A stretch of DNA of 64,000 nt from contig OU696588.1 of the NCBI GenBank assembly GCA_916048095.2, forward strand, positions 3,193,501-3,257,500, in the 5' to 3' direction. The stretch is from Sacculina carcini (taxonomy: Eukaryota > Arthropoda > Thecostraca > Sacculinidae). Under the pieces are notes generated by a model. The model had not been told where the DNA came from. It saw nothing but the letters and a program-made list of their open reading frames with translations, and did not search any database. The translations under genes and the position numbers were made by a program. Position 1 is the stretch's first letter. Each line of letters begins with the position of its first letter. Positions 30,190 to 59,393 of the stretch are shown one piece after another.

Positions 30190-30190
30190 T

Positions 30191-34407: not shown

Positions 34408-34456
<49 letters not shown>

Positions 34457-35813: not shown

Positions 35814-36010
35814 ATTGTGCGTTTGGCATCATTAGTCCTGGTTGCGGTTGAGTGTCAAGAGAACCGCTGGACGCCGAACCAAGCAGGCAACCAGCCGCAG
35901 AACCATTGGAACCTTGACACAGGATGGCAAAATAGTCCGAGTGACAACGCTGAATGTTATGTGCACAGCAATCAGTACTTCTGCGAAAAACCGGGCCCCG
36001 ATTATCCAAC
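35814..36010 (+). CDS. Spaetzle-like gene 1, first recognised coding exon
   Basis: Acceptor TTTGTCGCTAG before, donor GTGAGA after; it ends in phase 2. It encodes the hydrophobic leader and the prodomain motif [10 protein letters not shown]. The codon aligned with the start ATG of gene 2 is ATT here. Confidence 0.82.
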
Positions 36011-39000
36011 GTGAGACTTCTCAGTGAATCTATGATTATTTGTCATTCATTATTTCATCTCCTACCTATTCCTCAATTTTAATTTAAGTGTAAAACATCA
36101 ATAAAATCCTAAATACACGTTCTCACTAGGGACAAGAATATAAACAAAATAGATTGGTATTAAATGACAAATGAATAGGAAATATTAGATTCTCTATGGA
36201 TTTTGTAGTGATTAAACGTAACGATTATTTAACGATCATTGATCAGTAATGCTATTAATAATAATAATATTATTAGTTCTGGTAAGCGAGACACAGGGTT
36301 CATATTACTGTCTCCAAACTGGTGTATGTTACCAGGTTGATAGTGACATGGATAGAGACATGGATAGAGACATGGATAGAGACATGGATAACACACGTTT
36401 TCGTGAATAACACCCACTCAGACAATCTGTAGAAACCGGACCTGCAACAATGCATGTTGCATGCATGAGGAGCCAGCTAGTGCAATATCACTCAGTCTAA
36501 TCTTGTGCAACGGACAATCTTTTGTGCCCGGATGTGATGACGTGCTATGTAATGCGGAATAGCACAGAATTATCACGAGGCGAGATGTGTCATCACTTTT
36601 GCATCATTGTTCTACTGCAACCACCAGTGATACGACTGAAGGCATTTCAAAAAGATTTGACTGAGTAACTTATCGTGTTCAGTGAACTTGTATTTTTTAT
36701 CGTTTAAGCTTCTTACTTGCTTGAAACATGTCAAATACAATATGCGCAAGTTTTGAACCAAAAAAATCAAATACACGTGTAATTATGTAGTACACAGCAC
36801 GGTAGAGCAGTGGTTCTCAACCTATTTCTTGCCGTGACTCCTTAAAAGCCATGTGGCCCCTCAGAAACTGTCAGTGGCCCCGTAGAAGTCCTCGTGGCTC
36901 TCATACACACATGCATAATGTCGACGCTACTTCTGCATAGGATTAGCTCATATACACCGGTGACTATTTCCACCGGCCACCGAAACAACCGGAACACACA
37001 ATTGAAATTGACAACATCGACAATGATATTAGAAAACATTAAATTGTTTCCACAAATGTTTTGTGGCCCGTGGGGAAAAACTCCGCTGGCCCCCCATTTT
37101 TGAATTTGGTCCTAGAGCCCCCCATAAAATTTCCAATTATTTTCCACGTTGAGAAACACTACGAGAGAGCATTAGAAGCCAAAAAAACGTGTGCAATCCT
37201 GAATATCCTGTATCGCCGATATAAAACGCATAGCACAACATAAACGCAGGTGGTGTAGAAACAAATTGCATTAAATGTACACAATAACAATAATATAAGA
37301 CTTGACGACTTATGTGGCTTGTTTTTACCTCCTGACATCGTACTGAATAGTGTTTTTATTGTTGGAGCTGTTTGGCGATATATCGCCAATCCAGTATTTT
37401 TTTGGTCACATTTTTCTTCAAGGCAATCAAAACATGTTTGCTGAATACTTTAGCTGTGGTTGGTTGTGAGCAATTTTGGCTTTAGAGTCGACTAACTTCC
37501 AAACTGAATTGGTGTGTGCTACTAGCCTGATTTTTCGAAGCGGTCCTCCTAAGATAGAGTACGTCGTAGCGACCACGTGTTTCCAAAACTAGGCGATGTA
37601 GACTCTTGTAGATAATGAAGAGCTTGAAGAACTCTTGCAGATTTGAAGAACACTAGCGTAAATAACACTAACAACACTGTGAATGGCTTGCACATGAACA
37701 AAGCCACGTTTTTTGAATACGTGAAAACAGTTTTAATAAAGCCTTGCCGGATCTTGATGGGACTCTCACTTGACACCGCGTCCTCATTTACTTGACCTGA
37801 CTGACTGGGTGTGACTTGTCACGCAGTTATTGGCTGACAATGACATGACGTTATCGTGACGTCATTCGGACGTGACCGCTTCGCCTCAAGCGAAAGTAAT
37901 AGCACAACAAATTGGCAATAATTTTGACTGAATAATTAATGTATGGATAAACTATTTTCCACAATGCAGGAAGTAGGATCTTCACTCCAATTCAATATTG
38001 TTGTGTGATCGTGTATGGTTTTATTGTGTGTATTGTGTGCGAGTGTGTGAGCGAGTGTGTGCAGTTATGCCCACGCGCCTGTCTTTAAATACAGTTTTTG
38101 TTTGTTTTGTTCTGCAAACATAGAAAAAGATACGATGACGCTGTATAAATGAAATCAAATAATCAAATAACAAGAAACTTTTATTGTAATGTTGTCCAAT
38201 AGGCGCACAACAAGCGTACAAACATAGTTAATGTTCATCGCCATATTTGCAAGTGTTCATCGTGTCACCCAGTGTTCAGTGTATGTATTGTGTATGCGTG
38301 TATGTGTGTATGTCACAACTGTGAGCCTTGTTACAGTCAGTCTGATGCTAGCCTCGCTCGGGTGTGCTTCAATATATCCACACGGGTGTTCTGAGTGTGT
38401 TTCTCGCCAATTAGAGGCAACACAAGAACATTACATGACTAATAATTACATTTGCAAATTATTCAGCCAATAATGTACAATTATGAATGATTTCATGCCT
38501 AATTTATTTGGATTAATTTAAATTAATTAATAAATCAAGGTAAATTTAATCGATCAATACTTAATTTAACACTTACATATTTCGTATATATATTAATTGC
38601 AATTTACATTTCTGCATTTGATTTGAGCTCAACTGCTGTTCTCACAGAGATAAAATTGAGTCGTTCATCTCCGACAATGTAGCTCTGTCGCGTCGAATGT
38701 ACGGTGAGAATGATGCCGAGACATTGGACCTCACAGCCCAAGAGCTTGCCATAGATGTGCCGCAACTACTACAACCGGCAGAGTTCCCTGCGGCGCATTC
38801 CGAACAGCCTCCTATCAAATATGGCGTGCCCAAAGTGCCGAAATCTACTACTGATTTCACGACAGAATCTAGTTTCGGATTGATGCCGCCCTTAGTCACC
38901 TCAAGACACACGATGCCTTGGCCTGGACAAAAACACATTTATGATCAAGGCTTTCGGTCCTCATCTCAGGGTTATTTGCCTCCTCGTCAAGAGGGAATGT

Positions 39001-41952
39001 CTTCTACTCCTCAGCAGGTGCCGGAATATGTCTTTCTAAATCATTTTCCGAATGAGATTTTACTGAGGAAATTCCATTTTGTGCAGAATGCATTTATTCA
39101 AGTTCGGTTTTTACATTTCAATATTGCCTAGTTGAATATCTCAATAAACTTGCTAACCAAAATCAGTATCTTGCTGTGTAATTTCATGAATAGTATGTGT
39201 TTTAAGTGTGTTTGTTTTGTGGGCCAACTCAGAGGTCGATTTCCTACGGTCACTTCGTTCATACTCGCCACAAACGCGACCTCACCAGCTCGTCTGAAAC
39301 AGTTTACGCCGCCAGCGAAAACGACAATCCCAACAGCAGCAGCCGTAATAATACCGCAAATGGTTATGGATATTTTCCCAAGCAGGACGACAACATGTGA
39401 GCAATGACGCGATCCCTCGTGTGACTAATATCAGAGTATATAATACTGGGCTTATTAACAGAACGTTGTTTGTTGATTCCTGGCCTAGACGTCTAACCTA
39501 GTCACCCAAATTATGTTCTAATCAGACATACCTGAATACGGTTACTCATATTGCTCCTTCAAAAAAATATTAAACAAATGCACAATTAGTCCAATCTACA
39601 CATGAGGAGAAGAAATACTTATTGGAGCTTTATGACATTTGCATAGCGTACTTGGATAATGTGTTTATGCGTGTGTGTGTGTGTGTGCGTGTCAAATACA
39701 GGATTGATAGCTGCACTTCACAATCGAGAACTCTGACTCCTTTTTGGGTGCACAATATCAAGGGACAGCTGCGAGCCATTGTCAACTCGAGGCATTTTCC
39801 TCAGACAGTTCACATGGAGACGTGCAAGTCAGCCAAATCTCTCTGAAATCAACTCTGTTTTGTCAATGCTGGCAATAGTTGGGCACTTGACTAACTGAAC
39901 TCGTTTCTCTCAAGCTATCATTGGCGGATCCAGGGGGGGGGGGGGGCTCGGGGGCTGAAGTCCCCTCCAAATGTTTCCATCAACTCCTCATAACTAAGGG
40001 ATTCACCAAAAGAGGTTAACGAAAATGTGTGTGTGTGTGTAGAATTTGTTGATATAAGCATTATCACAAAGCGTATTTGCGCATATTGTATGGGTAAATG
40101 TGTGTATATATCATTGAAAAATGTCCCAAGTCATGTCCTTGACACGCCACCTAGTCACTTATACATAGCTCAGCTCCCCCAAATTGCATATGGATCCGCT
40201 AATGCAAGCTATCTATATCTTGGGCGCTTCTGGTATGTGGGACGACCACATGGAAGTTATAGTGCTTGGACTAATTCCATGTCCTCGGACATGCATGTAA
40301 TTAATACTAATAATAATATCTAAAATGTAAACGCCTCTGCGGTAGGGGATATGAATACTGCCGCCGTACCCGCTGCTTGTCGTAAGAGGCGACTAAAAGC
40401 GGACCCTCTGCTTCTTCACTCCCTGTACTGCCATGTCCAAGGGGGAGCGATAATTCAACAGAGGTGGCACCCCCTTGGACTACTGCAGCTGTCTTCTTTC
40501 CTATTCCCTTTACTCGGATTAAAAAACAAAAAAACTAATAATAAGATAATAATAATTAATGCGTTTATTTTCTGTGTTATTTGAACAACTGCGGGTGTGC
40601 TCCAGTTCGCAGCACGATATTTGCGCCGATATCTGCTGGTTTGCTGGCTGGTTCAATTAAGGCGACAGACAGTTACGTAATATTAACTTGGGCGACAGTC
40701 AATTACGTACATTGCCTGGAAACAGACAGATATAATTCGTTTGTTAATTCCTCAGATATATAACGGATTTTCAACAACGGAAAGGAAAAATAGTGAAAAA
40801 ATCTGAAATAATTTTCCATGCCATTCTTTAATTCTCGACACACGCACATACATATATATACACACACGCAGACATTTAGTGCTCGTTGCAAATCTAGGAA
40901 AATCTTGTTGGTGACATTTTTAATCGGAAATCCCGTACATGTGTGTGTCTGTGTGTGCGTGTGTGTGTATGTGCGTGGGTGTGTGTGTATGTGTGTGTGT
41001 GTGTGTGTGTATGGGACTGAAAGTACAGTTGCGTGGATGTTTGTGTGTATGTCCTTGTATATTTGTGTGTGTGTGTGTGTATGTGTGTGGGTGTGTGTGT
41101 GTGTATGTACGTGGGTGTGTGTATGTTTGTGTGTGTGACGCACCCTTGTTTTGCATGAGCTGAAAAGTCATTATAATCGACGGGCCAATGCAGCACCGCA
41201 CCTCTCAGATGTTATTTCCCTCAGTGTAGAATTGATGTAGTAATGCAAATTCTCTCGAGATTATTCACCATACAACGATATAATATATTCCATCGGCAGT
41301 CGAGTAGAGAAAAACTAAAAAAAGTTGCAGAAAAATTAAAACTTCACATAACCATGAAATGAAATATTGCCAAAAAGTGTCTTGTTTTCATTGCTTCAAA
41401 TAATCACTCACATATTGCCGGTATATTCTATGCGACTGCAGTTTTCAAAAAAAAATGTGCAAATACAGTTTTCATATTTGCATATATTGCTTGCTAGAAT
41501 CATTACATATGTCAGTTAGTGCATTACACAGGCTATGATAGAGATTGAATCAATGTTTGCGCTGCACTCAAAGAAAATATTAGACGAAGGAAAATGAAAA
41601 ATTGGCTCAGAATGGGCAATCAGAAAAATGTAATGAACCTCTGTTTTAGATAAACGCACAATATACGCGTATCTAGTGGTCAAATTCTTATTCTAATAAT
41701 AACATCAATAATCAAATCAGTATAACTATCATATATTATATTACAATATTTTGTAATTATGTCAGAATTGTTGTTTGTTGTTTTTGCAGTGTTAAAACGA
41801 CAGCATACTGTCATGGAACTTGCAGTTGTGGTCAAAAATATCACCTTCATCGACTGCTGGCCTACGATCCTAACAACGAGTGCTCGGGAATTTTCGTTGA
41901 CATCTTCGTTTTTCCTTCGGCATGTGTGTGCCGATGTCCCCGGCAAGATTAG
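35814..41952 (+). CDS. Spaetzle-like cystine-knot cytokine, gene 1 (five coding exons)
   Basis: Exons 35814-36010, 38648-39017, 39233-39396, 39702-39827 and 41790-41952 give 339 residues and a TAG stop, with all phases compatible. Spaetzle proteins are secreted, proteolytically activated ligands of Toll-type receptors, with a neurotrophin-like cystine knot. Seen here: a hydrophobic start ([11 protein letters not shown]), a prodomain Cys-x-x-Pro-x-x-x-Tyr-Pro block, a furin-like RHKR site, [14 protein letters not shown] before a Glu-Thr-Cys, and a last exon with [11 protein letters not shown] and FPSACVCRC. Nine cysteines follow the cleavage site. No ATG is present at the start of exon 1, so an upstream exon is needed. 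The gene at 54587-59393 has the same exon plan, which is the strongest support. Trunk-like ligands share the fold and are the main alternative. Confidence 0.88.
36808..37161. mobile_element. hAT-like MITE in intron of Spaetzle-like gene 1
   Basis: It starts CAGTGGTTCTCAACC and ends CGTTGAGAAACACTA. The flanking 8-mers CGGTAGAG and CGAGAGAG agree at six positions, as an eroded hAT TSD would. The interior is rich in GTGGCCCC. Confidence 0.6.
38648..39017 (+). CDS. Spaetzle-like gene 1, prodomain exon
   Basis: Acceptor TGCTGTTCTCACAG, donor CAG|GTGCCG; it begins with one base of a split codon and ends in phase 0. It encodes [18 protein letters not shown], which aligns with [18 protein letters not shown] of gene 2, then about 100 Pro/Ser/Thr-rich residues that gene 2 lacks. 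The donor is the least certain boundary; the frame stays open to 39131. Confidence 0.78.
39233..39396 (+). CDS. Spaetzle-like gene 1, cleavage-site exon
   Basis: Acceptor GGGCCAACTCAG, donor GTGAGC; phase 0 to phase 2. It contains RHKR followed by Asp (furin-like site) and an Asn/Ser-rich linker. The end GAC-AAC-AT matches the end of the corresponding gene 2 exon (GAC-AAT-AT). Confidence 0.82.
39702..39827 (+). CDS. Spaetzle-like gene 1, first cystine-knot exon
   Basis: 126 nt, the same length and phases as its gene 2 counterpart. Acceptor GTGTCAAATACAG, donor GTCAGC. It encodes [14 protein letters not shown], then [14 protein letters not shown] and the conserved Glu-Thr-Cys. An alternative donor 6 nt earlier (GTGCAA) would delete that cysteine and is disfavoured by the gene 2 exon length. 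Confidence 0.87.
39913..40200. mobile_element. hAT-like repeat fragment
   Basis: A G-run follows TTGGCGGATCCAG. The block is repeated at about 53648-53930 (CACTGGCGGATCCAG), with shared sequence such as GATATAAGCATTATC. Confidence 0.5.
40205..40560 (+). repeat. Two LINE/SINE-type 3' ends
   Basis: 40215-40318 is a degraded copy of the 3' end of the LINE at 16840-25058, with an AATACTAATAATAA tail. 40328-40560 starts GTAAACGCCTCTGCGG, contains CTGCTTGTCGTAAGAGGCGA and ends in another AATAATAA tail. Neither codes for protein. Confidence 0.5.
40938..41145. repeat. GT-rich microsatellite
   Basis: Interrupted GT/GTAT repeats. They produce several spurious ORFs on both strands. Confidence 0.92.
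41790..41952 (+). CDS. Spaetzle-like gene 1, terminal cystine-knot exon
   Basis: Acceptor GTTGTTTTTGCAG; one base completes the split codon, then 53 codons and TAG. It encodes [20 protein letters not shown], then [17 protein letters not shown]. This is the family's C-terminal signature: a (Q)KY..RLLAYDP block and an FPS.CVC end. AATAAA lies at 42196. Confidence 0.9.
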
Positions 41953-42195
41953 GTGCCGACAATTACCGCCGAAATATGAAAAATACACGATGTTTCGCAA
42001 TTACTTGATGCCCAGAATGCGATACGATCTAATTTATTTCTGAGAGACCAGAATGCCGCATAAGTCACAGTCAAAGTTATGGACATCTCTAGATCCCATT
42101 AAGATGGAGCATTGTTTCAATATTAATCTATTCTGACCGCAGTAAACATTGTGTTGACAAAAAATGTGTTGTATAATATTGACATATACTGAAAC

Positions 42196-42201
42196 AATAA
42201 A
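42196..42201 (+). terminator. Candidate poly(A) signal of Spaetzle-like gene 1
   Basis: AATAAA, 244 nt after the stop codon and immediately before the pogo-like element. Confidence 0.5.
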
Positions 42202-42226
42202 ATAATCAATCAATGGTGATATATTA

Positions 42227-42924
42227 CAATCAAATCTCGCTACTACCACCCGTTGGGACCGAGCAAAAGTAGCATAATAGCGAAGATTTGTAAAAACGGC
42301 CATATTTTTTTCAACGAAGACGACTTTATTACTAAACAGTTTAAATTTCTGAACTAATCCTTCAGTTTCAGTCCGCAGATCTAAAAAATTGTCGGCTGGC
42401 GCGTCTTTTTTCGGTGAATTTCGAGTATCTCGTTGTCTAAACGATCACACGCTTGCATCCCACCTGGGTTTCCGCTACTCTGCTGCATGAACTTCCTGAT
42501 GTTGGCCCATGCGCGCTGGGCTTCTTCGCACGAAACTATTTCCTCCTCGATATTTATATCTTGGAATTCGCTTTCCATCGGTTCCTCGTGATTCAGCATT
42601 TCCTCTGCAATCTCTTCCGGCATAAAAGATCAATCAGTCGCAAGGTGATCGTCGGAAAGTTAAAAAGCTCGATTTCCTCGTTCCTGTGAATCTTCCATTC
42701 AGAAGGCAGAACTACCCAAATCTGGAACAGTTCAGAATCGTCCACTTCAAGCTGGATCTCTTCCTCGACAAACCTGTGTTTCGCAAAACAGTTCCTTACC
42801 GTCGAAAAAAGTGACACAGTAGCGATATTAGAGGTGGTACAGTAAATTGGTTTTAAATAGCAATTTGTTGGGTCGGATCAAAAGTGGCAAAGTACCGAGG
42901 TGGCACAGTAGCGAGATTTGACTG
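42227..42924 (-). mobile_element. Pogo/Tigger-like element, internally deleted
   Basis: It is bounded by TA and ends CAATCAAATCTCGCTACT / AGTAGCGAGATTTGACTG, the CAGTCAAA..TCGCTA type of pogo/Tigger. On the minus strand, between 42817 and 42381, two frames encode the end of a Tigger transposase (TVRNCFAKHRFVEEE, DDSELFQIWV, then EEAQRAWANIRKFM and CDRLDNEILEI). The catalytic part is deleted. Confidence 0.8.
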
Positions 42925-44383: not shown

Positions 44384-45102
44384 TCAGTGGGAAACCTGCG
44401 CCTGTTTCTTCCTCGTCAGCTTTTCGATGTCGGGTTTGGTATTGCTTAGCGCACAGCGGAGACTCGCTTCTACTTGGATTTCGTTTCGAGCCCTCGCTTT
44501 CACGCTCACCAGCGCAGAGAAGCCGACTTCACAGAGGTAGGTTGTGGAGAACTGTACCAGAAAATCTCGGGCAATCTTCGCAGCCTTTTCGTACGGTGAA
44601 GACATCCAGAAAGTTTCGAGATCCAATGTCTTGAACGCATCTTTGGCACATCCATCTGCTTGAAGACACAAGAGCTCCTCCTGGTACCCGTCGTCCACAG
44701 TCTCAGCATTACACGTGAATGGGTTCCGAATAATTTCATGAAAAGTTATCACATCTTCCCTTACGTGAGGAAAGTACCGGAGGAAGTCCGTCTTCAAATT
44801 GGAGAGGAGGGACTTGATGTCCTGAACCACATCTTCAGGAAGGTTTCCATCTCCAAGGCAAGCTGAGATCGCACTGAAGGAGGCCGAGTTTCCCCGTTGA
44901 ATGCGTCCTTTCCAGAGGTCCAGTTTGGCCACGAAGCATCTGATCTTGTCGTCTTGAACCAAAATGTTCATTTTATTCCCCTGCATTTTGATGGTCAACT
45001 CATTGAGGGACCCAAAGATGTCGATGAGGTACGCCAGGCGAAGGTGGAAATTATCCGCCTTCAACTGATTCAGGAGAACGACGTTTCCCTTGTTCTTCGA
45101 GG
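44384..45102 (-). pseudogene. hAT transposase, C-terminal half
   Basis: 239 open codons after the insertion point, with YLIDIFGSLNELTIKMQG, PFTCNAETV and the C-terminal hAT dimerisation region (SPYEKAAKIARDFLVQFSTT, then CEVGFSALVSVKARARN). It matches the ZBED5/SCAND3/FAM200 group of hAT-derived proteins. The open frame continues upstream only into LTR sequence. Confidence 0.88.
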
Positions 45103-45394
45103 TGTTTGTGTGCGCGGTTACGATTGTTTGTGAGTGTACGTGTGTTGACATGGTGTGGAGTGGGAACAGGAGGTATGTGGCGAACGGCGAGGGTGGTTGG
45201 TGTTAAGCGTTTGTGGAAGGAGGGTGTGCGACTGCTTGGTGAATAAGAGTGTGGTTTTGGTTGTTGGGTTTTTGTGTCTGTTGGTTGGTTCTGTGATTTG
45301 CTGCTAGCACATGCATCTAATCATCATCATCATCATCATCTGACTCGTGCAATATATATGTGAAAGTTTTTTTCCCGGCATTTATTCGATTACA
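45103..45394 (+). repeat. Element B 5' LTR
   Basis: TGTTTGTGTGCG...GATTACA. It contains a short ATC microsatellite. Confidence 0.92.
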
Positions 45395-45407
45395 AGCTAT
45401 TTCGGCT
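45395..45407 (+). promoter_or_regulatory. Element B primer-binding site, complementary to tRNA-Phe 5' end
   Basis: AGCTATTTCGGC follows the LTR directly, as in element A. The gag ATG starts 3 nt later at 45411. Conservation of this site between two elements with unrelated LTR sequence argues that it is functional. Confidence 0.6.
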
Positions 45408-45410
45408 AAT

Positions 45411-46181
45411 ATGGCGAGTGTTAAGCTCACCGATGTTCTACGTCCGTTTGATGGATCGTCCAGCGTTACAGAGTGGATAGATAAGTTTGAATTGCTGGTG
45501 CAACTGAAGGAGATGAAGGATGAGGAAACGATACTGCCAATGTTTCTTGAAGGCAGTGCACTCGCTCTCTATACAGAGCTGAGTGCAGAACAGAAGAAAG
45601 ATGTGGCAGTCATCAAGAAGGCCCTTCAGAGTGCGTTTTCTCTCAACCCCTTCAGTGCGTATGAACAGTTTGTGAGACGCATATGGCGTGACGAGCCAGT
45701 TGATGTTTACATGACCGATCTGCGGAGACTGTCAAGGCAGGCAGGAATTACGTCTGATTCTGTGCTGCTGAGGGCTTTTGTTGTTGGCTTGCCATCAGTT
45801 GTCTCAAGAGAGCTGAGGGCAATGGCAAACATTGAAGCGACGTCCTTGTCAGCTGTGGTGGACCGCGCCAGAGCATTGATGTCTGAGCTCGTGGAGCGGC
45901 CTGAACCTGTGTTGTCTATGACACATGAAACGACATCAAATATTGGTCGGCGTGGGGATAAAAATGCGACCAAGAGGACACCTGAGGACAGCCGCGGTCA
46001 GATTCGGCAGTGCTATCGACGCGGTGGCCCCCACTTGATGCGTCAGTGTACGAATAATAATTCGAAGCATGTAATTTGCTGGATTTGCGGGAAACCGGGC
46101 CATATCTCGAGATCATGTTTTAGCAGGTCGGAAAACTTCATGGGAGAAACTTGTGCGCCGGAAGTTTCTCACACCCAGTAG
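45411..46181 (+). CDS. Element B gag
   Basis: 256 codons from the ATG after the primer-binding site. The capsid-like region begins LTDVLRPFDGSSSVTEWIDK. Two nucleocapsid knuckles follow: the first reads CYRRGGPHLMRQC, with the second cysteine replaced by arginine; the second, CWICGKPGHISRSC, is canonical. It overlaps pol in the -1 frame by about 58 nt (46124-46181). Confidence 0.85.
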   Translation: MASVKLTDVLRPFDGSSSVTEWIDKFELLVQLKEMKDEETILPMFLEGSALALYTELSAEQKKDVAVIKKALQSAFSLNPFSAYEQFVRRIWRDEPVDVYMTDLRRLSRQAGITSDSVLLRAFVVGLPSVVSRELRAMANIEATSLSAVVDRARALMSELVERPEPVLSMTHETTSNIGRRGDKNATKRTPEDSRGQIRQCYRRGGPHLMRQCTNNNSKHVICWICGKPGHISRSCFSRSENFMGETCAPEVSHTQ

Positions 46182-47017
46182 CAACGGCGCTTCCGATAGT
46201 TGATGGATTCGTTGATGGTCGTCCTGCGCGAATATTGGTGGACACTGGTTGCTCCAAATCTGTCGTTGGTTCCTGGATGTCGGGTCGTGTCAATTCGTGG
46301 CAAGGACGAGTGGTCGGAGTGGATGGTCATGAAGCGCGTTGTATGGGAGAAGCATCCGTGTTGATCACACTTCAGAATGTCACAAGGTCAGTGGATTGTG
46401 TTGTTATGAATAAGCTTTTAGATGGTGTTGATGTAGTGGCAGGTATTGACTTCATTGGGCTGGCGGGGGGAGTCGAGTGGAAGCAAGGGAAAATTAGATT
46501 TTTTGATGAATGTCGTGGGAAAACTACTGTTAGTTCGATTTGTAAAGTTAACACCAGGAAAAATGACAGGTTAACTCTCACAGACAAAGACTTCACGGCT
46601 ATCTTCTCTGAGGGGAAGTGGAAGGCTAAGTGGAATTGGAAATGTACGTCTCCACCAGCCCTGAAAAATACAGTTGGGGCGTACAGTAGTGTAGAGGATG
46701 AAGCCGTGAGCATAAAATGGAGAGAAGAACTTGATCAATGGATAATCAATGGTTATTTGAAAGAGTGTCCTGATCAGTCTTGCTCTAAAGGAGTGCTACC
46801 GTTAATGGCTGTTGTTCAAGCTAACAAGAGTAAGGTACGACCAGTTCTCGACTATCGAGAATTGAATGAGTACGTACAGTGTCACCCGGGGCCCGACGCC
46901 GCGGTTTGCACCGAGACTTTGCGGAAATGGCGACTGCTACCACAGAGATTGAAACTTGTCGACCTGAAATCAGCATACCTTCAGGTGCACATAGACGAGT
47001 CGTTGTGGCATTATCAA
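46124..47017 (+). pseudogene. Element B pol, protease and RT start, cut by LINE
   Basis: The -1 frame to gag; the first in-frame stop upstream is at 46121. Protease has LVDTGCSKSVV (Asp-Thr-Gly at 46241-46249). RT starts VRPVLDYRELNEYV and LKLVDLKSAYLQVHID, then breaks at LWHYQ, where the LINE begins. The open frame into CAA repeats beyond 47017 belongs to the LINE. Confidence 0.85.
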
Positions 47018-49617
47018 CAACAACAACAACAACAACATATATTTAATATAGCGCACATATTTATACACAGGCGCGAAAAAGACAACCGACAGGAACATCA
47101 CAGCGAGCAGGGAGTAGGCACAAATAGAAAAATGAAAACACGTTTGCAAACTGGAACATGCTAGATGGCCGTTGGCTATCAGATAGCTCATCCGCCCTTG
47201 AAACAGGTTTTGTTTTTTATCCTGTCGGGTGTCTAGCCACCCTCCTCACTGCAGAACAGTGGGGGAGCCGGTTTAGTCGCCGACAACTCGACCATGAATC
47301 TGGTTGTACTGGAATTACACGGTTACCAGTAGCAGGGCGAAGCCTGACCAGACAACGACGAATGCAAGAGATGCAAAAACGGGACGCAGCAACGAAAACA
47401 GATAATTCACAGTGAGTAAAAAGACAAATATCAAGCAAGAACAACGAGGGTACAACACAGGACGATCAGCACGAACAACACACATATAACCAAAGACAAA
47501 TAATACATTTAGTCATCAAGAGAACGAGTGAGCAGATATTTATGAAGATCAGCAGAAAAGGATCGGAATGAAGACTTGTGGTGAAGGTAAGATGGAAGCG
47601 AGTTATAGATACGAGGAGCAGAGAAATAAAAAGATTTGGATGACCAAGAGGATTGATTAAGAGCAGGAGGACAGACTAATGGCACAGGAATGCGACAAGA
47701 AGTGCGATTATTGAGAGTCAATAGGGAACGGAGATATGAAGGAGAAGAGGGAGAGTGTATAAGTTTGAAGACCAGACAACATACCTTATAGCGGATACGA
47801 GAAAGAGCAGGTAACCAACCGAGCTGTCGGATATGCACCGAAGTAGGGGTTCGCGGAGGAAGCCTCAGTACAAACCGACAAGCAAGGTTGATCACTGCTT
47901 GGAGTTGGCGGATGGATTTCAAGGGAAGATGGAAGAAAAGCGAGTTGCAATAGTCGATCTTAGAAAAGATATAGGAGTTTACCAGAAGACTAGCGGATGA
48001 GACATCAATCGACGAACGAATAGGGTAAAATTGTCGGAGTAAAAAGCGGCACGAGCGGATAAGCTGAGAAAAATGAGTCGAGAAAGAAAGGTTAGGATCG
48101 AACAAGACACCCAAATTGCGCATTTGATTGGCTAGCGGAAGGTTGATAGAGTGAGGAGAAATTCGAGGAGGGTGAAAGACTAGATATTCTGTTTTGTCAG
48201 GGTTGAGAACAAGTTTACGTGAAGCAGCCCAAGAAGAAATCTGGGTGAGCAGCATAGAGACCAAATTTGAAGAATGAGGAGAAAGAGGAAAATAAATTTG
48301 GATGTCGTCAGCGTATATGTGAAATGAAACTGGATAGCTGCGGAGAATAGGACAAAGGGATGATACGTATAAGTTGAAAAGTAAAGGACCAAGAAGTGAG
48401 CCTTGTGGAACCCCAGAGGTGAGAGGAAAGTCGCACGATAAAGCCGCATTACTGCGAACAGCATAGGAACGATCATTTAGATATGAGGTAAGAAGAGAAA
48501 GTGCAGTAGATGTGAGGCCTAGATGAGCAAGATCGCAGCATAAGATTTCGTGGTCGACTAGATCGAAGGCAGCAGAAAAATCTAAGGAAATCAGAAGCAC
48601 GGAATTTCCAAATGAAAAATTAGAGAATAGATCATTGGAGAGGCAGAGAAGAAGTGTTTCGGTAGAGTGCTGAGATACAAAACCAGATTGGCAGGGATCG
48701 AGAACAGGCAAGATGATAGGCCGTAATTGAACAAGGATGGCAGATTCTAGAAGCTTGGAGGACAGAGAAAGAATAGAAATTGGACGATAGTTGCATGGCA
48801 GAGAGGGATCAAGATTGGATTTTTTGAGAATCGGCAGTATAGTGGCGTGTTTGGAAGCTAAGAATGAACCGTGAAGGAAAGAAGAGTTAACCATATATGT
48901 GAAAACTGGAGTAAGGAGTATAATAGCATCAGAGAGAGCAGAAAATTGTATGGGGTCAGTGGGACATTTAGACCTCTGAAGTTTGGTAAGAAAACGTGCT
49001 GTGGTAGACGGAGCAATCGAGGAAAAAGAGGAAACAGTGCTAAGGCAAGGAGGAAATTGGAGAGGAAAAGTGCTAGTGGGTAATTTGGATTGCAAGGATG
49101 CAATTTTACAAGAGAAAAATGAGGCGAATTCACTGGCAGATATTGAGCAAGATGACTTAGAAGAGCGACCAGAAATAGATTTCAGAGTCATCCATCGTGA
49201 GCGAGATGATTGGAGTTGGCGTAATTGTGAACGATAGAAATTAGATTTTGACAAAGCAACCACAGAAAAAAGAGATTTGCGGGCACTACAGAAAGAGAAC
49301 CATGATGAAGAAGAGCGAAAGCGCCGCCAAGAACGCTCACGGGCTCTGCATTCTGAACGCAAGCGGGATAGATCGGACGACCACCAGGGAGGAGGAGGAG
49401 ATCTTGAGCGAAAGTGATGTAAGCGCAAAGGGAAGATCTGATCATTGATGAGGGAGAGAGAGTCGGATATAAACTTGGGGAGTAGGAGTGGTGGGAGGAA
49501 CAAATAGTTTGAGGGATTCAGAAGAGAGGTAACCAAACGACAAAATAATAAAGGATCAAATTTTTTGTAATCACGAAGCATCAGTGAAGCGGAAGAAGGC
49601 TTAGAAGGTGAAGGAAG
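47018..49617 (-). mobile_element. L2/CR1-type LINE inserted in element B
   Basis: 2600 bp, minus orientation, with the 8-bp TSD ATTATCAA (47010-47017, 49618-49625). Its 3' end, at low coordinates, has a TTG repeat preceded by a GCGCTATATTAAATAT block. It is 5'-truncated, with no endonuclease. Removing the insertion plus one TSD (2608 bp) restores the pol frame of element B. Confidence 0.9.
47509..49617 (-). pseudogene. LINE reverse transcriptase, 5'-truncated
   Basis: About 700 codons open. RT motifs in order: LPCNYRPISILSLSSKLLE, LISLDFSAAFDLVDHEI, TSGVPQGSLLGPLLFNLYV, and an intact YADD in HIYADDIQIYF. The C-terminal segment WSSKSFYFSAPRIYNSLP is typical of the L2/CR1/jockey side of LINEs. 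RT itself looks undamaged, but the endonuclease and 5' end are missing. Frame upstream of 49617 belongs to element B, not to this protein. Confidence 0.85.
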
Positions 49618-50786
49618 ATTATCAAAGGGTGAATTACCTAGGAAGGATATATTATTTAACCAGACTTGGCTTTGGGTTAAATGCAGCACCGAAGATTATG
49701 TCGAGTATCTTGAAAACGGTATTGGCGCAAAATGACGTCGTGAAAGCCGGCACCGATAGTTATATCGACGACGTCATTGTCAACGAGGAGATTGTATCGG
49801 TAGAGGAAGTGATAGCGCATCTGGCGAAATTTGGATTGGAAACCAAGCCGCCTGAATCTCTCGATGGTGGCAGACTACTCGGACTAGTTATTGGGCGGAG
49901 TCATCCTGGAGGAGCTCTACAATTCAGTAGAGGGAACACACTGCCAGTGCTGGGGAATGGAGAGAATATGTCAAAGCGAGAGCTGTTTTCAGCGTGCGGC
50001 CGCTTGGTAGGGCACTATCCAATCTGTGGATGGCTTCGCGTAGCCTGCAGCTACGTTAAGCGGATAAGTGATGGGAATAGGTGGAATGATAGAGTAGGAC
50101 CTAGAGCTCAAAAGTTGTTGATGGAAATACTGGACAGAGTGAAAGCTGATGACCCGGTGAAGGGTGATTTTCATGTGTCACCAGTTTATCGAGGAAGAGT
50201 GTGGTGTGACGCCAGTAGTTTGGCCCAGGGTGTTGTGGTAGAGATTGGAGGTAAACTGGTAGAAGATGCAGCTTGGCTGCGCAAACGGGATGACGCGAGC
50301 CATATCAACCTGGCGGAACTGGAGGCTGTGATTAAAGGTGTTACTCTCGCTATAAAATGGGGATTGAAACTCATTGAGGTTATGACGGATTCCGTCACAG
50401 TTGCGAAGTGGTTGAGGAGTGTGCTTGAGGATGAGGCGAGAATAAAAATAAAAGGTTTGTCAGAAGTGCTAGTGAGGAGGAGGATATCGATTCTGCGTGA
50501 CATCATCAATGAGCTGGGCGTTGAACTCATTGTGAAATATACTCCATCGTCGATGAACAAGGCGGATCGATTGACACGAGTGCCAAAGTCGTGGTTGAAG
50601 CCTACGCTCGGAGTACCTAGTGTGTGTGCAGTGACCTTGAGTGAGATGCACTCCCGGCATCATTTTGGAGTTGACAGGACGTTGTCGCTTGCCCAGATGG
50701 TGGACCCGAGAACCACGAGATCCGACGTAGAGAAGTGTGTGCGGCAATGCAAGCTGGTGCCCCGCGTGAGGAACTACCTTCTGTAG
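49618..50786 (+). pseudogene. Element B pol, RT end, RNase H and integrase zinc site
   Basis: After the LINE, RT resumes with the LTRLGFGLNAAPKIM block and YIDD (49761-49772). RNase H has WCDAS, AELEAVIKG and MTDSVTV. The integrase N-terminal zinc site (HSRHHFGVDRTL ... CVRQC) is present, then the frame ends at 50786; the whole DDE core and C-terminus of integrase are deleted. The 3' LTR follows 27 bp later with no recognisable polypurine tract. Confidence 0.85.
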
Positions 50787-50813
50787 TGGAATCAGAAGGT
50801 GTGTGTGTGTGTG

Positions 50814-51106
50814 TGTTTGTGTGCGCGGTTACGATTGTTTGTGAGTGTACGTGTGTTGACATGGTGTGGAGTGGGAACAGGAGGTATGTGGCGAACGGCG
50901 AGGGTGGTTGGTGTTAAGCGTTTGTGGAAGGAGGGTGTGTGACTGCTTGGTGAATAAGAGTGTGGTTTTGGTTGTTGGGTTTTTGTGTCTGTTGGTTGGT
51001 TCTGTGATTTGCTGCTAGCACATGCATCTAATCATCATCATCATCATCATCTGACTCGTGCAATATATATGTGAAAGTTTTTTTTCCCGGCATTTATTCG
51101 ATTACA
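50814..51106 (+). repeat. Element B 3' LTR
   Basis: 293 bp; it differs from the 5' LTR by one C/T change and one extra T in a T-run. It is preceded by a GT run. Confidence 0.92.
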
Positions 51107-52131: not shown

Positions 52132-52924
52132 GAATCATGATGCAACTGTTGACATCTGAGAAAATGTGAAACATGAATTAGTTGCGGATAGAGAAAATTA
52201 GAATAGTTACCAGAAAAAATGACATGAAACAGATAAATTGTGAAGAGCACTTATTTATGATAATAAAAAATACGTGAATTACAAATTTAATTGCCAATAA
52301 ATTGAGAAGTAAGAATGGAAACTAGATCGTGAAAGCGTGGGGAAAGGGGAAGTGAATATAACACACGTACTTGTTTCGGGGTGTGTGGAACACATGCAAA
52401 TGATACGACTGTAAATACACAACTGTATATTAAGCGGCATTATTGTGTGTGAGTGTGACAATTGATGGATGACGCATAAGTATGATGCAAGCTTGGACCA
52501 TGTGAGGATGTCGCTGACGTATCTGAGTCATGCTACACAGCCATTCAGCACAACACTGAACGAATTACGACGTTTGCCAGCGCAAACCGTCATACTCGCT
52601 TTGCACGTGCGCAGACATACACGCCTTGCACACTAACAAAAACCGTAGTAGTATCGATCACATGTTTGACAATTGAAATGATGATGAAACGATATCCACC
52701 ACAAACCGCCATGATGGTGATTGATGTTTCATTTTTAATTATTTGTCTGCATCAGAGGGTATTTATCAATTCCAAATGGCTTCGGTCAATTGAAATTGCA
52801 GGACGACGCCCAGACAGACCAGCCAAGCATAGACCGTCACATCGAGCTCCCATTTCCCCCCGGGAAGTGCCAAATTTCCCCCTAGGGGGAAATTTCCCCC
52901 CGGTTAAGAACCGCTGGACTAGAG

Positions 52925-53545
52925 AGACAAGAACACAGTCAATCTCATTGCGCATAATAATCCTATCAAGCCATTTCTGGCATGTCTTCATTTATGTGGA
53001 GGGTACCAGAGGAAAGCCACAGTACACAGCACACATTACACAATACAAAGTACACAGTGCACAGTACACTCACAGAGTACACAGTACACAATACACAGTA
53101 CACAGTACACTTACAGAGTACACAGTACACAATACACAGTACACCGTACACAGTACACTGTACACAGTACACAGTACACGTACAGAGTACACAGTACACA
53201 GTACACATTACACTTACAGAGTACACAGTACACTTACAGAGTACACAATACACAGTACACAGTACAAGTTGCACAGTACACAGTACACTTACATAGTACA
53301 CAGTACACTTACACAGTTCACAGTACACAACACACAGTACACAGTACACAGTACACAGTACACAGTACACTTACACAGTACACAATACACAGTTCACAGT
53401 ACACCGTGCACAGTACACATTACACTTACACAGTACACAGTACACAGTACAAAATACACAGTACACAGTATACCGTGCACAGTACACATTACACTTACAC
53501 AGTACACAGTACACAGTACACAGTACACAGTACACAGTACAGTCA
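52925..53545. repeat. ACAGTAC heptanucleotide satellite
   Basis: From about 53020 the sequence is built of 7-bp units (ACAGTAC and variants such as ACTTACAC). Because 21 nt is seven codons, several frames stay open on both strands (YTVHSTQ-type and LCTVYCV-type heptapeptides). The long ORFs here are artefacts. Confidence 0.93.
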
Positions 53546-53647
53546 ACCCGCCTCTGAATATACGCTATGATAGAATATGGTGTGGTGCATACGTATTGTG
53601 CCAGATATATAATTGCTCCTAATGCTTGACTCAACTGCACCACAACC

Positions 53648-53930
53648 ACTGGCGGATCCAGAGAGACGCTCAGGGGGTTGAAGCCCCCCCCCCCAAATGC
53701 TTCTATCAACTCCCCATAACCAAGACGTTCACTAAAAGAGGTCAAGAAAAATTGTTTTCTGTAGAATTTAATGATATAAGCATTATCGCAAAGACGTTGC
53801 ATAATGATGCATGTACATGGCTGTTCGACGTTGCATACATCGACATGATATTGCATAATGTCCCCAACATTAGGTTAGTACCTCCCAAAATTGTACTCCA
53901 AATACGCTACTGACCCCAAGAATACTCTCG
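53648..53930. mobile_element. hAT-like repeat fragment
   Basis: Starts CACTGGCGGATCCAG and matches 39913-40200. No right end found. Confidence 0.5.
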
Positions 53931-54586
53931 AAGCTTTATCATACCAAATGAGCTTGCATTTTTAGGCTGCATTGTTTAGGTCTTACACATAATTTTTGGT
54001 TTTCGTATTGCTTCATTAGATACCTATAGGGACTGGAAATTATTTATTATCTATTTGAGTCAAAAAATTAGTAGAAAGATACGCTAATAAGCACAAAAAC
54101 AGTGTTGAGGTAAATTTGTAACTTTTTTATCATTTAACGCCCAATGTTCATATATGGGAACATGCCTGTAACGCAAAAACTATTCGATGAAACTCAATGA
54201 TTTTTCAGAGAATATACATTGTGATGCCAAAACATACTTAACACATGTTCATGTCTCTATCTGAAGAATTACTATATGTAGGATAATAACGGTTAATGAA
54301 ATGAGTAAATCGGTGTTTAAATTTGCGTTTTAATGAAATATGTGAATGTTGGGCGATATATTTATTAGTGGGATGTCACTTTCCATTTGACAGAAACAAT
54401 TTTATGCACCATTCGTTCGATTATATTTGCACAGACACTTGCATTTGACTCGGTCACATGAGTTGGAGCATGTGACGCTTCTTGTCACTACAAATACGCA
54501 CATACTAATGACCTGCATACTCTGGTCTGAGCACTTCGGCAACGGCAAAGGCACCGGAGATGAATGTGTGAATGCACGCAGGTGCT
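53931..54586. other. 3' flank of Spaetzle-like gene 2
   Basis: AT-rich, then mixed sequence near 54430-54586. The minus-strand ORF at 54402-54716 is in a different frame from the real exon and is not a gene. Confidence 0.35.
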
Positions 54587-54746
54587 TCAGAAGGCTGGAC
54601 AACGACACACACAGCACGACGGAAAGAGGAACCAGTCGATAAAGATGCCTCTGCAAGCATCTGTGGGGTCGTATGCTAGCAGGCGGTGATATGCCAGCTT
54701 TTGCTGACAATGACATTGGTCACCGCAGTGCCTGGATGTATTGCCA
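54587..54746 (-). CDS. Spaetzle-like gene 2, terminal cystine-knot exon
   Basis: The acceptor lies at the edge of the CA/GT array (GTGTGTGTGTCAG on the minus strand). One base, then 52 codons and TGA. It encodes [20 protein letters not shown] and [12 protein letters not shown]. The GT repeat supplies the pyrimidine-poor acceptor tract. Confidence 0.9.
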
Positions 54747-54771
54747 CTGACACACACACATCACACACCCA

Positions 54772-54817
<46 letters not shown>

Positions 54818-54855
54818 CACACACACATCACACACACACACCCATCACACACCCA

Positions 54856-54889
<34 letters not shown>

Positions 54890-55014
54890 ATCACACACGC
54901 ACACACACACATCACACACCCATCACACACACACCCATCACACACACACCCATCACACACACACACACACCCATCACACACACACACACCCATCACACAT
55001 CACACACACACCCA

Positions 55015-55048
<34 letters not shown>

Positions 55049-58000
55049 CACACACACATCACACACACATACACGTGATATTTGATGTCATATATACACA
55101 CTATTTAAAGTGTTTGCATATGCATATGCAATTATACCCCCCGATAATTCTGCTGAGTTCAGTTCATTGGGTATATTATCATCAAAACCAGCATGGAAGG
55201 TAAATGACAATAGACCAAAAATGTAAGAAGTTATAAATATGTAAAGAAATATATCACGCATTACACCTTTCATTGGGGTATGTGTGTTGTAATTGAATAA
55301 GCTAAAAATAGTTGAGGGTCTCATGCAATTGGCCAACTGAGTCAAGTTTGAACACTAATACATGATGACTGTCATCCCCCCGAGCCTCGACATAAATTTA
55401 CGCCCTTGTGTATATATACATATATTGTTTGAAATTGTACTCAAAACCAACTTATTGGAGTGCAATATAGTAAACTAATTTACTTTACTTCACTTTACAC
55501 ACGTATACACACATACTTTCACACATAATGAGGGACCAGAATAGGTGAAGTGTATATGTGAATCTAGCGTGAATCATTCATCTTCAAATTGTAGGATAAA
55601 GCTGGTATAATGATCAACACAGGTGAAGTTATGTGTTTTCAACAGATTGCTTCGTTCAGTAGAAGAGAAAAACAGCTTACGATGCGTCTTTGAAATTGAA
55701 TGACACTGAAGTGAAATCATCGGCCGACATGACCTAAACATTGACCTAACCGGATGAAATCCTGACTCGGGTTTTCATCAACACATCCGAATGAGTCTAT
55801 TGAGAGTTTCCCAGGCGTGTTTGTGTGTGGACTCACAGCGAGGCGTGTCACATATTCTAAATAGGCTGAGGCTAAATTGATCAGAAGTTATATAAGCAAC
55901 CTGCAGATTTCCTGGTGGATGGCTTGCGGAAAGTGCTTGTTGTTGACTATTGCTCTCAATTGACCGGCAGAGTTGGCAGCCCAGTAAGGCGTGGTAACCT
56001 CGTGCGTTGACGGACAGCTATCCTTCCTGTGAAGCGCAGTTAATAAGTACGCCAGTGGGCCATTCAAAACATTTATTCTTTATAAAAGCACCGATAATGT
56101 GAAGTGAGGACCTAAACTACTCTAATCTGGTTTAACCAAATAATTAGACCTGATAATCTGATCAAATCTAAATTGAACTTGTTCTAAAATATTCTCATAT
56201 TTTATAGTTAAACAAAATTATATTGCTGTAGGCTTGACATTATGGCTGTCATGTGATTAGATTGATGTGATTTTGAAGAGTTATTCAATGATTCAAAGTT
56301 ATTCTGGTCATGACAACATTTTCTCTCATTCCTTTTTACATGCGAGGTGTTCTTGTCGATATATTTGTCCTGAAGTTGTAGTTTGAATCCGAGCGTGAAA
56401 TAATATAATTTTTCGGGTGTTACCGTGCTAAATGCTTGTAGGAAATTGAGTATGATTGTGTTGAATTAACTCACATATTGTCCAATCCTCGTTTAGCTCG
56501 ATCGTTTGACGATTGCCCTGCATCCTCCTGAAACAAACCTCATAATCTCATAACCTCACCCACCTCAAACAAACCTCCTCAAAACAAACCTCGTGGTTCA
56601 ATGTGAAAACAAAGATAAAGTTTATTTTGTCAGCTTGTGCTTTCCATTTCATTTATGCTTTCCAGATGATATACCACTAGCTCAAAGGCGAAGTTGTTGG
56701 TCGAATATTTGTTATAATATGAACACATCTATTATTGTTCTAAATAGTGAATTATTATAACGAATTCCGTTCACTTTCAGAACAGAGCTGGAAAACTACG
56801 TGAGCATCAAATTTATGATATTTTCTCCAATTACATCATTCATGCTTTCTGGTTAATTTTGTCGTGAAATTAACTGATTGCTATATCATTTGGTTATACT
56901 CTGTAATCCGGGGAATATTTTTTTATAAAGTTACTTTGGCTCTCAAGGCCATCTTGTTTTGTGATATATATTCTTAATAATAAAAAAGGAATCATTCGAT
57001 TACTAGTATCAATTAGCACACTCCTAATATAAACAATTTCGGGAACGCAATTTACAAGTAATTTAATTTGCGGAATGTAATTTATGATGAAAAGAAATTT
57101 ACTCACTTGGATCGCTCCGTGCGAAGATGTTCCGAACATTCTCCAGATGAGCGCTTTGTTAAAATCGATAAACTCATCGATTTCCTCACTAGCAAACACA
57201 ATACAATTGAAAACCTGCAGTTAAATACGTCAACAAATATTGATTAAGAATATAAGAAACGCTAAAATATATGTAAATATGACAGATGTGTAATTAAATA
57301 CTTGTTTTTTTATAGAATTTGGTTAGTAAATAGTATTTTATAGAATTTGGTTGGTAAATCGTATTTTATAGAATTTGGTTAGGCGTAATAGGCTTAATAA
57401 ACAGTATGTAGTATGTAGTAGTATGTAGTAGGTGTAATAAATATCATTATATTTCCAATATTTGCAACCACAGTGTTTTCATGCGAATCTGCATTCCGGT
57501 TTTTGAATTTGTATATCATATTAAATTCGAAGTTAAAGCACAATGTAAAATCACACGAGATGAAAAGATATACACCGCTGTGTATTCGCATTAGTAATAT
57601 AGCGTAAAACCTCTGATTAAACGACACCTTTAATTGAACAGCACCGTGGGGCAACAATTAAAATATATAACGGTAGCTCTAAATACAGTGGTTTCCAACC
57701 GGGGTGCCGTGAGATCTTTTGAGGATGCCGCCAAAATTCAGGAGAAAAATTGCATATTTTTATTATAATACCACTTTTTGTAATAGCAGGATCAGTGTAA
57801 ATAAAATTTTCATATCTATGTATAAAGTGTTGTTACACCGATGCAAAATGTCAAAATGAAAAAAATATAATACAAACAACGGATATTTTAAATATGTATT
57901 TCCTTATAAGGGTGTCGGAAACTTTTGAAAGGCTTGCCAAGGGCGTAGCAGACTATAAATGGTTGGGAACCACTGATTTAATAGAATGTCACCTAAAATA

Positions 58001-59393
58001 AAACGTCGATTTGCTGAATTATTCTCTTTTGGCAATAGCCATGCCTGAATGATTTATATTGGTCAATTTGTGATAAATTATCAGAAATCACACTGTGTTT
58101 GTGATATATGTTAAATCAATATGTATTTCGTTACCTGGTTATTTCTTTATCCATAAAATTTACCGTATCTTCTCGAAATTCCTGGCCATCTTATTGAAAA
58201 ATAGAGCGGCACCCTCTTATTGAGCAGCACCTCCAATTCAAGGGCACTACGGGGGAAGGTTTGAAAAACAGAACAGCATGAATAGAGCTGCTCAAATAGA
58301 GGTTTTACGGTAGATTAGTCTAAATTTGTTGTATGAATATAAATTTGCATTGCTGAGAATAAACGCATTTAATAATGAATTTGAACTTGAAATTTAATAC
58401 CTTTGCATTCATGCGAACAAATTGCAGCAGTGAATTATTCTTCACCGCTGTGTTCAGATGCAAAATGATACATTATCAAACCTCTATTGGAACGGAATTG
58501 AATTCTATTTTTCAAACATTTCCCCCGTAGTGCCGTTCAATTAGAGGATGCCGCTCTATTTTTCCACTAGCTGGTCAGAATCGCGAGAAGATTCGGTATA
58601 TTCTATACATGAAAATATCCAGGTAACGTATGCATACTTATATAACAAAACATACAAATACATGGTGATTGTGGTGCACCACGTGTCACTGCGTTTTGCG
58701 CCATCTGGCGGTAACTGCCAGAAGCGCAGTATCCTGTGCAGCTGTGTGTATGTCTGTGTGGCGTGATGTGTTTGTCTGTCATTATGCGTGTTTGACATAT
58801 GATCTATCAGTGATTTTAATTATAATTAATCACAGATTCACTAATAGAAATCAGTCAGTCATAGCTATCACCAAAAGAGAAGGACTCATCACTGGCATTT
58901 AATTGTAGGGTGCCGTTTTATTATAGGTGCCGTTAAAATATAAGTCTTACGGTAATTATAAGTATATATCAATATAAACAGCCTTGTCAGCGGTGAAATA
59001 CTGAGGATATTACCCCAGCATCACCAGCACAACAGGTGGCTGCTGGGAGAGCGTGGCTGCTGTGGTTGCGAGGAATTATGGGCCCCCCCCCGAAGGCAAC
59101 ACTTGGGGCCCCCATTATAAATAAATCACCAAATAATGAATGTATTTATTAGACATAATCACATGATATGTGAAGCAACGGGGCCCCTCAACATTCGGGG
59201 CCCCCCGACCGGGGGGTGCGGGGGGCGGTTGCTACGGCTCTGGTTGCTGGGGTACCCACCTGGGGTAATCATCACCCGCATCTCGGCAGTACAACTGTTT
59301 CAGGCGTCGTACACACGGAAGACGCGGAGAAAATGATTGGTTGGCAAGACACATTGCACACATCATGCACACCAGAATATACACACGTGCCAT
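54587..59393 (-). CDS. Spaetzle-like cystine-knot cytokine, gene 2 (five exons, complete)
   Basis: Minus-strand exons 59393-59260, 57188-57107, 56527-56475, 56026-55901 and 54746-54587 join in phase to 184 residues and a TGA stop. ATG at 59393-59391; residues 1-17 are a clear signal peptide ([17 protein letters not shown]). The prodomain has [10 protein letters not shown] and [18 protein letters not shown]; cleavage site RAKR followed by Gly; mature part about 99 residues with ten cysteines, close in size to the Spaetzle C106 domain. Diagnostic blocks: [32 protein letters not shown]. It matches gene 1 in every exon boundary phase. The likely role is a secreted ligand for a Toll-type receptor, processed by a furin-like or clip-type protease. 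Very short prodomain. Confidence 0.92.
54750..55070. repeat. CA / CATCACAC microsatellite array
   Basis: About 320 bp of CA repeats interspersed with CATCACAC and CCATCACAC. It abuts the last exon of Spaetzle-like gene 2. Confidence 0.95.
55076..55900. other. Last intron of Spaetzle-like gene 2 (non-repeat part)
   Basis: AT-rich. No gene or recognised repeat. Confidence 0.4.
55901..56026 (-). CDS. Spaetzle-like gene 2, first cystine-knot exon
   Basis: 126 nt, same length and phases as 39702-39827. Acceptor GCGCTTCACAG, donor GTTGCT. It encodes [28 protein letters not shown] and a conserved Glu-Ile-Cys. Confidence 0.9.
56475..56527 (-). CDS. Spaetzle-like gene 2, cleavage-site micro-exon
   Basis: 53 nt, acceptor TGTTTCAG, donor GTGAGT. 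It encodes [21 protein letters not shown] is a furin-type site at the same place as RHKR in gene 1. Too short to appear as an ORF. Confidence 0.85.
57107..57188 (-). CDS. Spaetzle-like gene 2, prodomain exon
   Basis: 82 nt, acceptor TGTGTTTGCTAG, donor GTGAGT. It encodes [19 protein letters not shown], aligned with the start of the 370-nt gene 1 exon. Confidence 0.85.
57686..57975. mobile_element. hAT-like MITE in intron of Spaetzle-like gene 2
   Basis: CAGTGGTTTCCAACC at the left and GGTTGGGAACCACTG at the right. Flanking 8-mers TCTAAATA and ATTTAATA agree at five positions (eroded TSD). Confidence 0.7.
58163..58596. mobile_element. Pogo/mariner-like foldback MITE
   Basis: TA-flanked. The arms of about 110 bp are inverted copies (CCGTATCTTCTCG / CGAGAAGATTCGG at the ends, CCCGTAGTGCC blocks inside). 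Related pieces occur near 57601-57655 and 58900-58960. Confidence 0.65.
59057..59242. mobile_element. hAT-like MITE just inside intron 1 of Spaetzle-like gene 2
   Basis: Right end GCTACGGCTCTG at 59242, only 17 nt from the splice donor (59259). Left end eroded. Same family as 8527 and 1-322. Confidence 0.6.
59260..59393 (-). CDS. Spaetzle-like gene 2, signal-peptide exon
   Basis: ATG directly follows a GT-rich tract and GTATGTAG, itself a possible acceptor. 44 codons plus two bases, donor GTGGGT. It encodes the signal peptide, a basic [11 protein letters not shown] segment and [10 protein letters not shown]. Confidence 0.87.

Follow-up and report, generated by a model that had tools for sequence, protein, structure and literature searches.

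A window of 64,000 nucleotides (nt) from the genome of Sacculina carcini (assembly GCA_916048095.2, contig OU696588.1, positions 3,193,501 to 3,257,500; positions below are those of the window) contains two convergent genes of five exons apiece, gene 1 on the plus strand (35814-41952) and gene 2 on the minus strand (59393-54587), whose predicted products resemble the Toll ligands of the Spaetzle (Spz) family (Table 1). An initial annotation of this DNA had described such a pair, and the spliced models agree with it in their outer ends, in running junction phases of 2, 0, 2, and 2 in both genes, and in a fourth exon of 126 nt in each; GT-AG dinucleotides are present at 8 of 8 introns. The gene 1 product has 339 residues without a starting methionine, and the gene 2 product has 184 residues, with both an ATG and a stop codon. 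Based on the analyses described here, the two genes are very probably a Spaetzle 3 (Spz3) paralogue pair of a barnacle-like crustacean that encodes furin-cut Toll ligands, in which gene 2 is conserved and gene 1 has diverged and lacks the inter-subunit cysteine.

Table 1. Exons of the two genes and the retroelement between them
Feature	Position	Strand	Basis or detail
Gene 1 exon 1, leader tail, Cys-pair block, and DYP	35814..36010	+	frame, position, splice site, motif
Gene 1 exon 2, [14 protein letters not shown] block and prodomain	38648..39017	+	model; tblastn, best E 1.7e-4
Gene 1 exon 3, RHKR basic cleavage site	39233..39396	+	frame, splice sites; weak tblastn, E 0.024
Gene 1 exon 4, first half of cystine knot, 126 nt	39702..39827	+	model, tblastn
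Gene 1 exon 5, second half of cystine knot and stop, Ala for Cys in FPSACVC	41790..41952	+	model, tblastn
Gene 2 exon 1, ATG, signal-like leader, and [16 protein letters not shown]	59260..59393	-	model, tblastn
Gene 2 exon 2, [19 protein letters not shown]	57107..57188	-	model; tblastn, best E 1e-3
Gene 2 exon 3, RAKR basic cleavage site	56475..56527	-	frame and splice sites only
Gene 2 exon 4, first half of cystine knot, 126 nt	55901..56026	-	model, tblastn
Gene 2 exon 5, second half of cystine knot and stop	54587..54746	-	model, tblastn
Long terminal repeat (LTR) retroelement between the spz3 genes	45102..51106		repeats 45102-45394 / 50813-51106, 99.3% alike

Gene models and family assignment

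Because splicing by hand could favor a match to Pfam, 11 Spz3 proteins drawn from a set of 187 homologues were compared by tblastn with the raw, unspliced window. Besides the matches to exon 2 of each gene (Table 1), the best E values were 1.4e-14 and 4.9e-22 for exons 4 and 5 of gene 1, and 8e-6, 7e-19, and 1.4e-24 for exons 1, 4, and 5 of gene 2, and these matches fall in gene order without any splicing. Exon 1 of gene 1 gave E values of only 0.027-0.91, no better than chance matches elsewhere in the window (down to 0.004), so this exon is placed by its frame, position, splice site, and motif. The single weak match to exon 3 of gene 1 came from a query that also gave chance matches, and the 11 queries gave no match to exon 3 of gene 2 in the raw window. 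The least secure parts of the models are thus exon 3 of both genes and exon 1 of gene 1. Exon 2 of gene 2 starts at 57188 in the present model, since from this acceptor the frame continuing exon 1 reads as Spz3; an alternative acceptor at 57214 gives no such reading and was discarded. A GT-rich microsatellite (54757-55080, minus strand) abuts the acceptor of exon 5 of gene 2 and may affect splicing or assembly.

The initial annotation had called the pair hidden from open reading frame (ORF) scanning and had placed two ORFs that overlap gene 2 in wrong frames. This holds for the ORF at 54402-54716 (minus strand); the one at 56894-57199 (minus strand) is in frame with exon 2 of gene 2 and, by arithmetic, the ORF at 38697-39131 (plus strand) is in frame with exon 2 of gene 1, so that one exon per gene sits in frame inside a listed ORF. 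The same 11 queries gave no convincing third Spaetzle copy in the window (remaining tblastn matches, E 0.004 or worse), and Rfam and tRNA scans were empty.

The proposed identity as Spaetzle-type Toll ligands is borne out by homologue matches, by the tblastn results, and by the Pfam search that had been suggested as a check, in which the Spaetzle model (PF16077) scores 71.7 bits for gene 1 (E 8.2e-20) and 73.6 bits for gene 2 (E 2e-20) against a cut-off of 27; more exactly, the genes are Spz3-like. Gene 2 also passes the Coagulogen model (PF02035; 28.1 bits, cut-off 25), and gene 1, at 19.8 bits, falls below that cut-off; a coagulogen identity was rejected because the Spaetzle model scores far higher for both. 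All paralogue-numbered names are Spaetzle 3, seven among the best 120 of 311 matches to gene 1 and six among the best 120 of 135 matches to gene 2, with one protein (P0016) counted in both sets and most matches carrying no name. The Spz3 N-terminal block is present in both genes.

Compared with the arthropod Spz3 proteins of Pollicipes (P0121), Amphibalanus (P0122), and Daphnia pulex (P0010, annotated simply as a hypothetical Spaetzle-domain protein), the likeness includes the N-terminal two-Cys block, YP, F(I)D.NKAL..RM(Y/F)G, the basic cleavage site, and a cystine-knot domain with 10 conserved cysteines; gene 2 has all 10, whereas gene 1 lacks one of them and an invariant tryptophan. Aedes aegypti Spz1C (7b1b and 7b1c) and Drosophila Spz C-106 (3e07 and 4bv4) belong to the same family and share the PSCC.C motif. 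Spz1 differs in being processed by a trypsin-like enzyme, as parts of PMC9427763 describe, whereas genes 1 and 2 have RxKR furin-type sites. Gene 2 alone matches Spz structures weakly (best E 0.004), and a profile of 30 relatives reaches E values of ∼1.6e-6 to 1.7e-6 for Spz1C and 0.0024 for 3e07. Structure prediction, the other check suggested initially, was run on Pollicipes Spz3 and gave weak fold support only, since the AlphaFold model (30 of 189 homologues aligned) is of low confidence (mean 65.8) and none of its PDB matches, of which neurotrophin-3 and coagulogen are the best and Spz1C ranks 33rd, has an E value below 0.001.

Conserved gene 2 and the lost cysteine of gene 1

Gene 2 reads as an ordinary, complete, and conserved Spz3 copy. 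Its product starts with a signal-like leader (judged by eye), and its Cys176, the first Cys of PSCC, is the inter-subunit cysteine. The top two matches are barnacle proteins, from Pollicipes (53% identity over 86%) and Amphibalanus (47% over 86%), and in the mature domain identity is 72.5% to Pollicipes, 71.4% to Amphibalanus, and 73.3% to the metagenome protein P0123. Gene 2 is far enough from both named barnacles to suggest a source lineage that lies outside theirs. In a tree of 26 of the 187 homologues from which gene 1 was left out, gene 2 and five barnacle-type rows, three of them grouped by similarity and not by species name, form one clade (97/96, starred). When gene 1, with its long branch, was included, gene 2 grouped with Pollicipes and Amphibalanus at 100/99 on the mature domain but at an unstarred 83/96 on both blocks. 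The 26 homologues of the later trees were chosen by hand; the first tree used 47 homologues, thinned from the 179 that remained after 8 of the 187 had been dropped because a pattern failed to locate the mature domain in them. Among the 187 homologues, P0123 is the only one that shares with gene 2 the Leu-Ala of KLAYH, and it is probably an orthologue of gene 2 in a related animal.

In gene 1, the corresponding motif reads FPSACVCRC, with Ala330 at a site that is Cys in 186 of the 187 homologues and Ser in the remaining one, P0156. The codon is GCA in gene 1 and TGC in gene 2, so an error in one base does not account for the difference. In the alignments, the site falls on residue 94 of 7b1b chain D (E 0.12 for gene 1 alone; 1.7e-6 for the 30-relative profile), and PMC9427763 describes the bond between the Cys-94 residues of the two subunits as the central intermolecular disulfide, conserved in Drosophila Spz. 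The other inter-subunit cysteine named there, Cys-59, also reads Cys in the numbering of the 7b1b chain, which supports the mapping of Cys-94. Gene 1 retains the other 11 conserved cysteines, and the remaining knot-domain cysteines are present in both genes (9 of 9). A narrow search for gene 1 orthologues with the mature part gave two candidates, both with PSCC; the earlier list covered the best 120 of 311 matches. Gene 1 is best described as a Spaetzle-domain protein in which Ala replaces the inter-subunit cysteine, and hence it is not filed as a covalent-dimer ligand; as 11 other cysteines are kept, a link through another cysteine is possible.

One explanation of this loss is that the genes are ordinary spz3 paralogues and that the cysteine change is neutral, with the dimer held by another cysteine or by noncovalent contacts. 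The serine of P0156 at the same site and the 9 other mature-domain cysteines that gene 1 retains are consistent with this explanation, as are the several Spaetzle genes per species reported for malacostracans in the relevant part of PMC5437397; the near-invariance of the site among the homologues argues against it. We consider a neutral change a real possibility, if somewhat short of probable.

Origin, integrity, and surroundings of the pair

The initial annotation took an inverted duplication of one Toll-ligand gene as the necessary origin of the pair. The conserved blocks that it quoted do align, the mature parts are identical at 51 of 90 positions, and a common Spz3 ancestor of both genes is supported. 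The proline of HFPQ, found in gene 1, gene 2, all five barnacle-type rows, and 0 of the 182 other homologues, points to a duplication inside the barnacle lineage. The simplest reading, which is not a proof, would be a local inverted duplication within that lineage; the local inversion is an inference, because no similarity above chance was detected between introns or flanks when 35000-43000 was compared with 53700-60700 in gene orientation. In this comparison, exon 5 matched with an E value of 0.16, three non-exon matches of 20-25 bases had the same value, and the rest were weaker; the region between the genes (42000-54500) contained 0 pairs of inverted repeats of at least 40 bases. As evidence, the common exon plan carries less weight than had been supposed. 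A cystine-knot intron is reported for Spz, Spz2, Spz3, and Spz5 (PMC8296651, in a passage citing Parker 2001), so that part of the plan predates this pair and the plan alone is no proof of a local inverted duplication; the evidence in that passage covers the knot junction and not the other three.

Alternatively, the genes could be a Spz3/Spz4-like pair, or old or whole-genome duplicates that were later brought together. Spz3 and Spz4 are described as very close families in the portions of PMC2772990 and PMC8296651 that compare them, a whole-genome duplication in barnacles is reported in part of PMC11331182, and similarity between the introns was not detected. When P0123 was included, the approximately unbiased (AU) test mildly rejected genes 1 and 2 as sisters (p-AU 0.04). 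Without P0123 this value rises to 0.24, which tempers the argument for an old duplication, as do the barnacle-type proline in both genes and their position within 24 kb of one another; for a Spz4-like pair, no Spz4-named match to gene 1 was found among the matches listed (best 120 of 311). Single residues point both ways. Gene 1 keeps the common Tyr where gene 2 and P0123 alone have the Leu-Ala of KLAYH (0 of the 182 others and 0 of the 4 other barnacle-type rows), a pattern that points to a duplication before the split between gene 2 and P0123. Against this, both genes have GQL, in which Leu occurs in 2 of the 182 others and in 0 of the 5 barnacle-type rows, including P0123. The branch of gene 1 is so long that no placement of it is safe. 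Overall, a Spz3/Spz4-like pair or an old or whole-genome duplication, in place of a local inverted duplication, seems somewhat unlikely. In the spider Parasteatoda, spz3 is likewise duplicated; Spz3-A and Spz3-B lie on chromosomes 6 and 8 and are treated as products of whole-genome duplication in the section of PMC12717030 concerned, whereas the genes described here are 12.6 kb apart and convergent.

Several results weigh against reading these genes as a functional pair of barnacle Spz3 paralogues. Both genes are nearest to Spz3 among the sequences compared, an assignment that does not separate Spz3 from Spz4. With gene 1 in the tree and both blocks used, support for the barnacle clade is 83/96 and unstarred, and it falls to 63/69 without P0123; with gene 2 left out, the free tree search did not recover the barnacle clade, which is nevertheless not rejected (p-AU 0.64). 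Gene 1 is 57% identical to gene 2 and 57-60% identical to other crustacean Spz3 proteins. Two trees give it an extremely long branch (4.93 and 3.94), which fits decay too, and Trp324 and Leu326, each invariant in 187 of 187 homologues, are replaced by Ile (the tryptophan) and Val (the leucine). A leader exon had been claimed for both genes, and this stands for gene 2, with its ATG and signal-like leader; in gene 1, no ATG occurs in the first visible exon, which is immediately preceded by an in-frame TAG, so that either the start has been lost or a further exon upstream is missing. Under a narrow rule (GTRAG donor, phase 0, <90 bases), four ATG-to-donor stretches were found in 30001-35790, and none was convincing.

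The missing start, the long branch, and the lost Cys and Trp would all be expected if gene 1 were a decaying spz3 pseudogene, an explanation that we regard as quite improbable given the frame that is open across five exons, the canonical dinucleotides of all 4 introns, the 11 other conserved cysteines, and the outcome of simulated neutral drift. With amino-acid change set at 29% in these simulations, 9 of 2000 runs kept the 339-codon frame free of stops, and at 20%, 43 of 2000 did; 1 and 12 of 2000 runs, respectively, also kept at least 10 of the 11 cysteines; indels were ignored, the choice of open exons itself favors an open frame, and the 29% is our own three-way estimate from pairwise identities. 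A 339-codon open frame is unlikely under neutral drift.

The LTR retroelement between the genes (Table 1) is young, and its ORF at 49605-50783 passes the Pfam models RVT_3 and DUF7047. It is flanked by two minus-strand ORFs (44387-45202 and 51105-51563) with no Pfam match above cut-off, which may represent a single, older ORF now split in two. Elsewhere in the window, a Mst/Hippo-like kinase with a SARAH domain is encoded in one long ORF (4149-5951 and 12510-13778, plus strand). A direct repeat of 3.6 kb (4837-8412 and 12664-16262, 97.7% alike) includes a second copy of the kinase that lacks the start, and an ORF with a FYVE domain is present in each repeat copy. A reverse-transcriptase ORF (17022-18839, plus strand) lies within 17022-24523, the ORF at 21191-23896 (plus strand) has DUF7047 and sub-threshold reverse-transcriptase and integrase matches, and a direct repeat of 657 bp (19085-19741 and 23867-24523) is 98.9% alike.

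Predicted ligand action and significance

The gene models, the family, the nearest subfamily, and the loss of the cysteine can be read from the sequence. By analogy with the family, each gene would encode a secreted precursor with a leader, a short N-terminal Cys-pair/helical block, and a prodomain, from which a furin-type cut at RxKR (RHKR in gene 1, RAKR in gene 2) would free the C-terminal neurotrophin-like cystine knot. The receptor for the freed knot dimer would be a Toll protein, with the Toll-8/Tollo type the most likely. Expression, like secretion, cleavage, receptor, and the effect of the cysteine loss, is presumed on the same grounds. The gene 1 ligand would be expected to act as a noncovalent dimer, as a dimer linked through another cysteine, or as a monomer or modulator. 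An unlikely proposal is that gene 1 encodes a Spz3-class Toll ligand without the inter-subunit disulfide. If this is true, the same animal would make, beside a normal Spz3 dimer, a noncovalent or monomeric form able to compete with the Toll signal, buffer it, or redirect it.

A search of the open-access literature for barnacle Spaetzle found only a spiny lobster paper, and none of the best 10 of 218 papers in a broader search has "spatzle" in its text; this is weak evidence of absence, as accented spellings could not be searched. The searched text of the Sacculina genome paper and of the barnacle whole-genome-duplication paper (PMC11331182) contains no word starting with "toll".

The pair is of an established kind, in which gene 1 may be a good lead, and it adds Spz3 copies to the annotation of a little-studied crustacean group. 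The structurally solved Toll ligands of this type are disulfide-linked dimers (PMC9427763). A paralogue in which the knot is kept and the linking cysteine is gone would offer a ready natural way of asking how necessary the link is.

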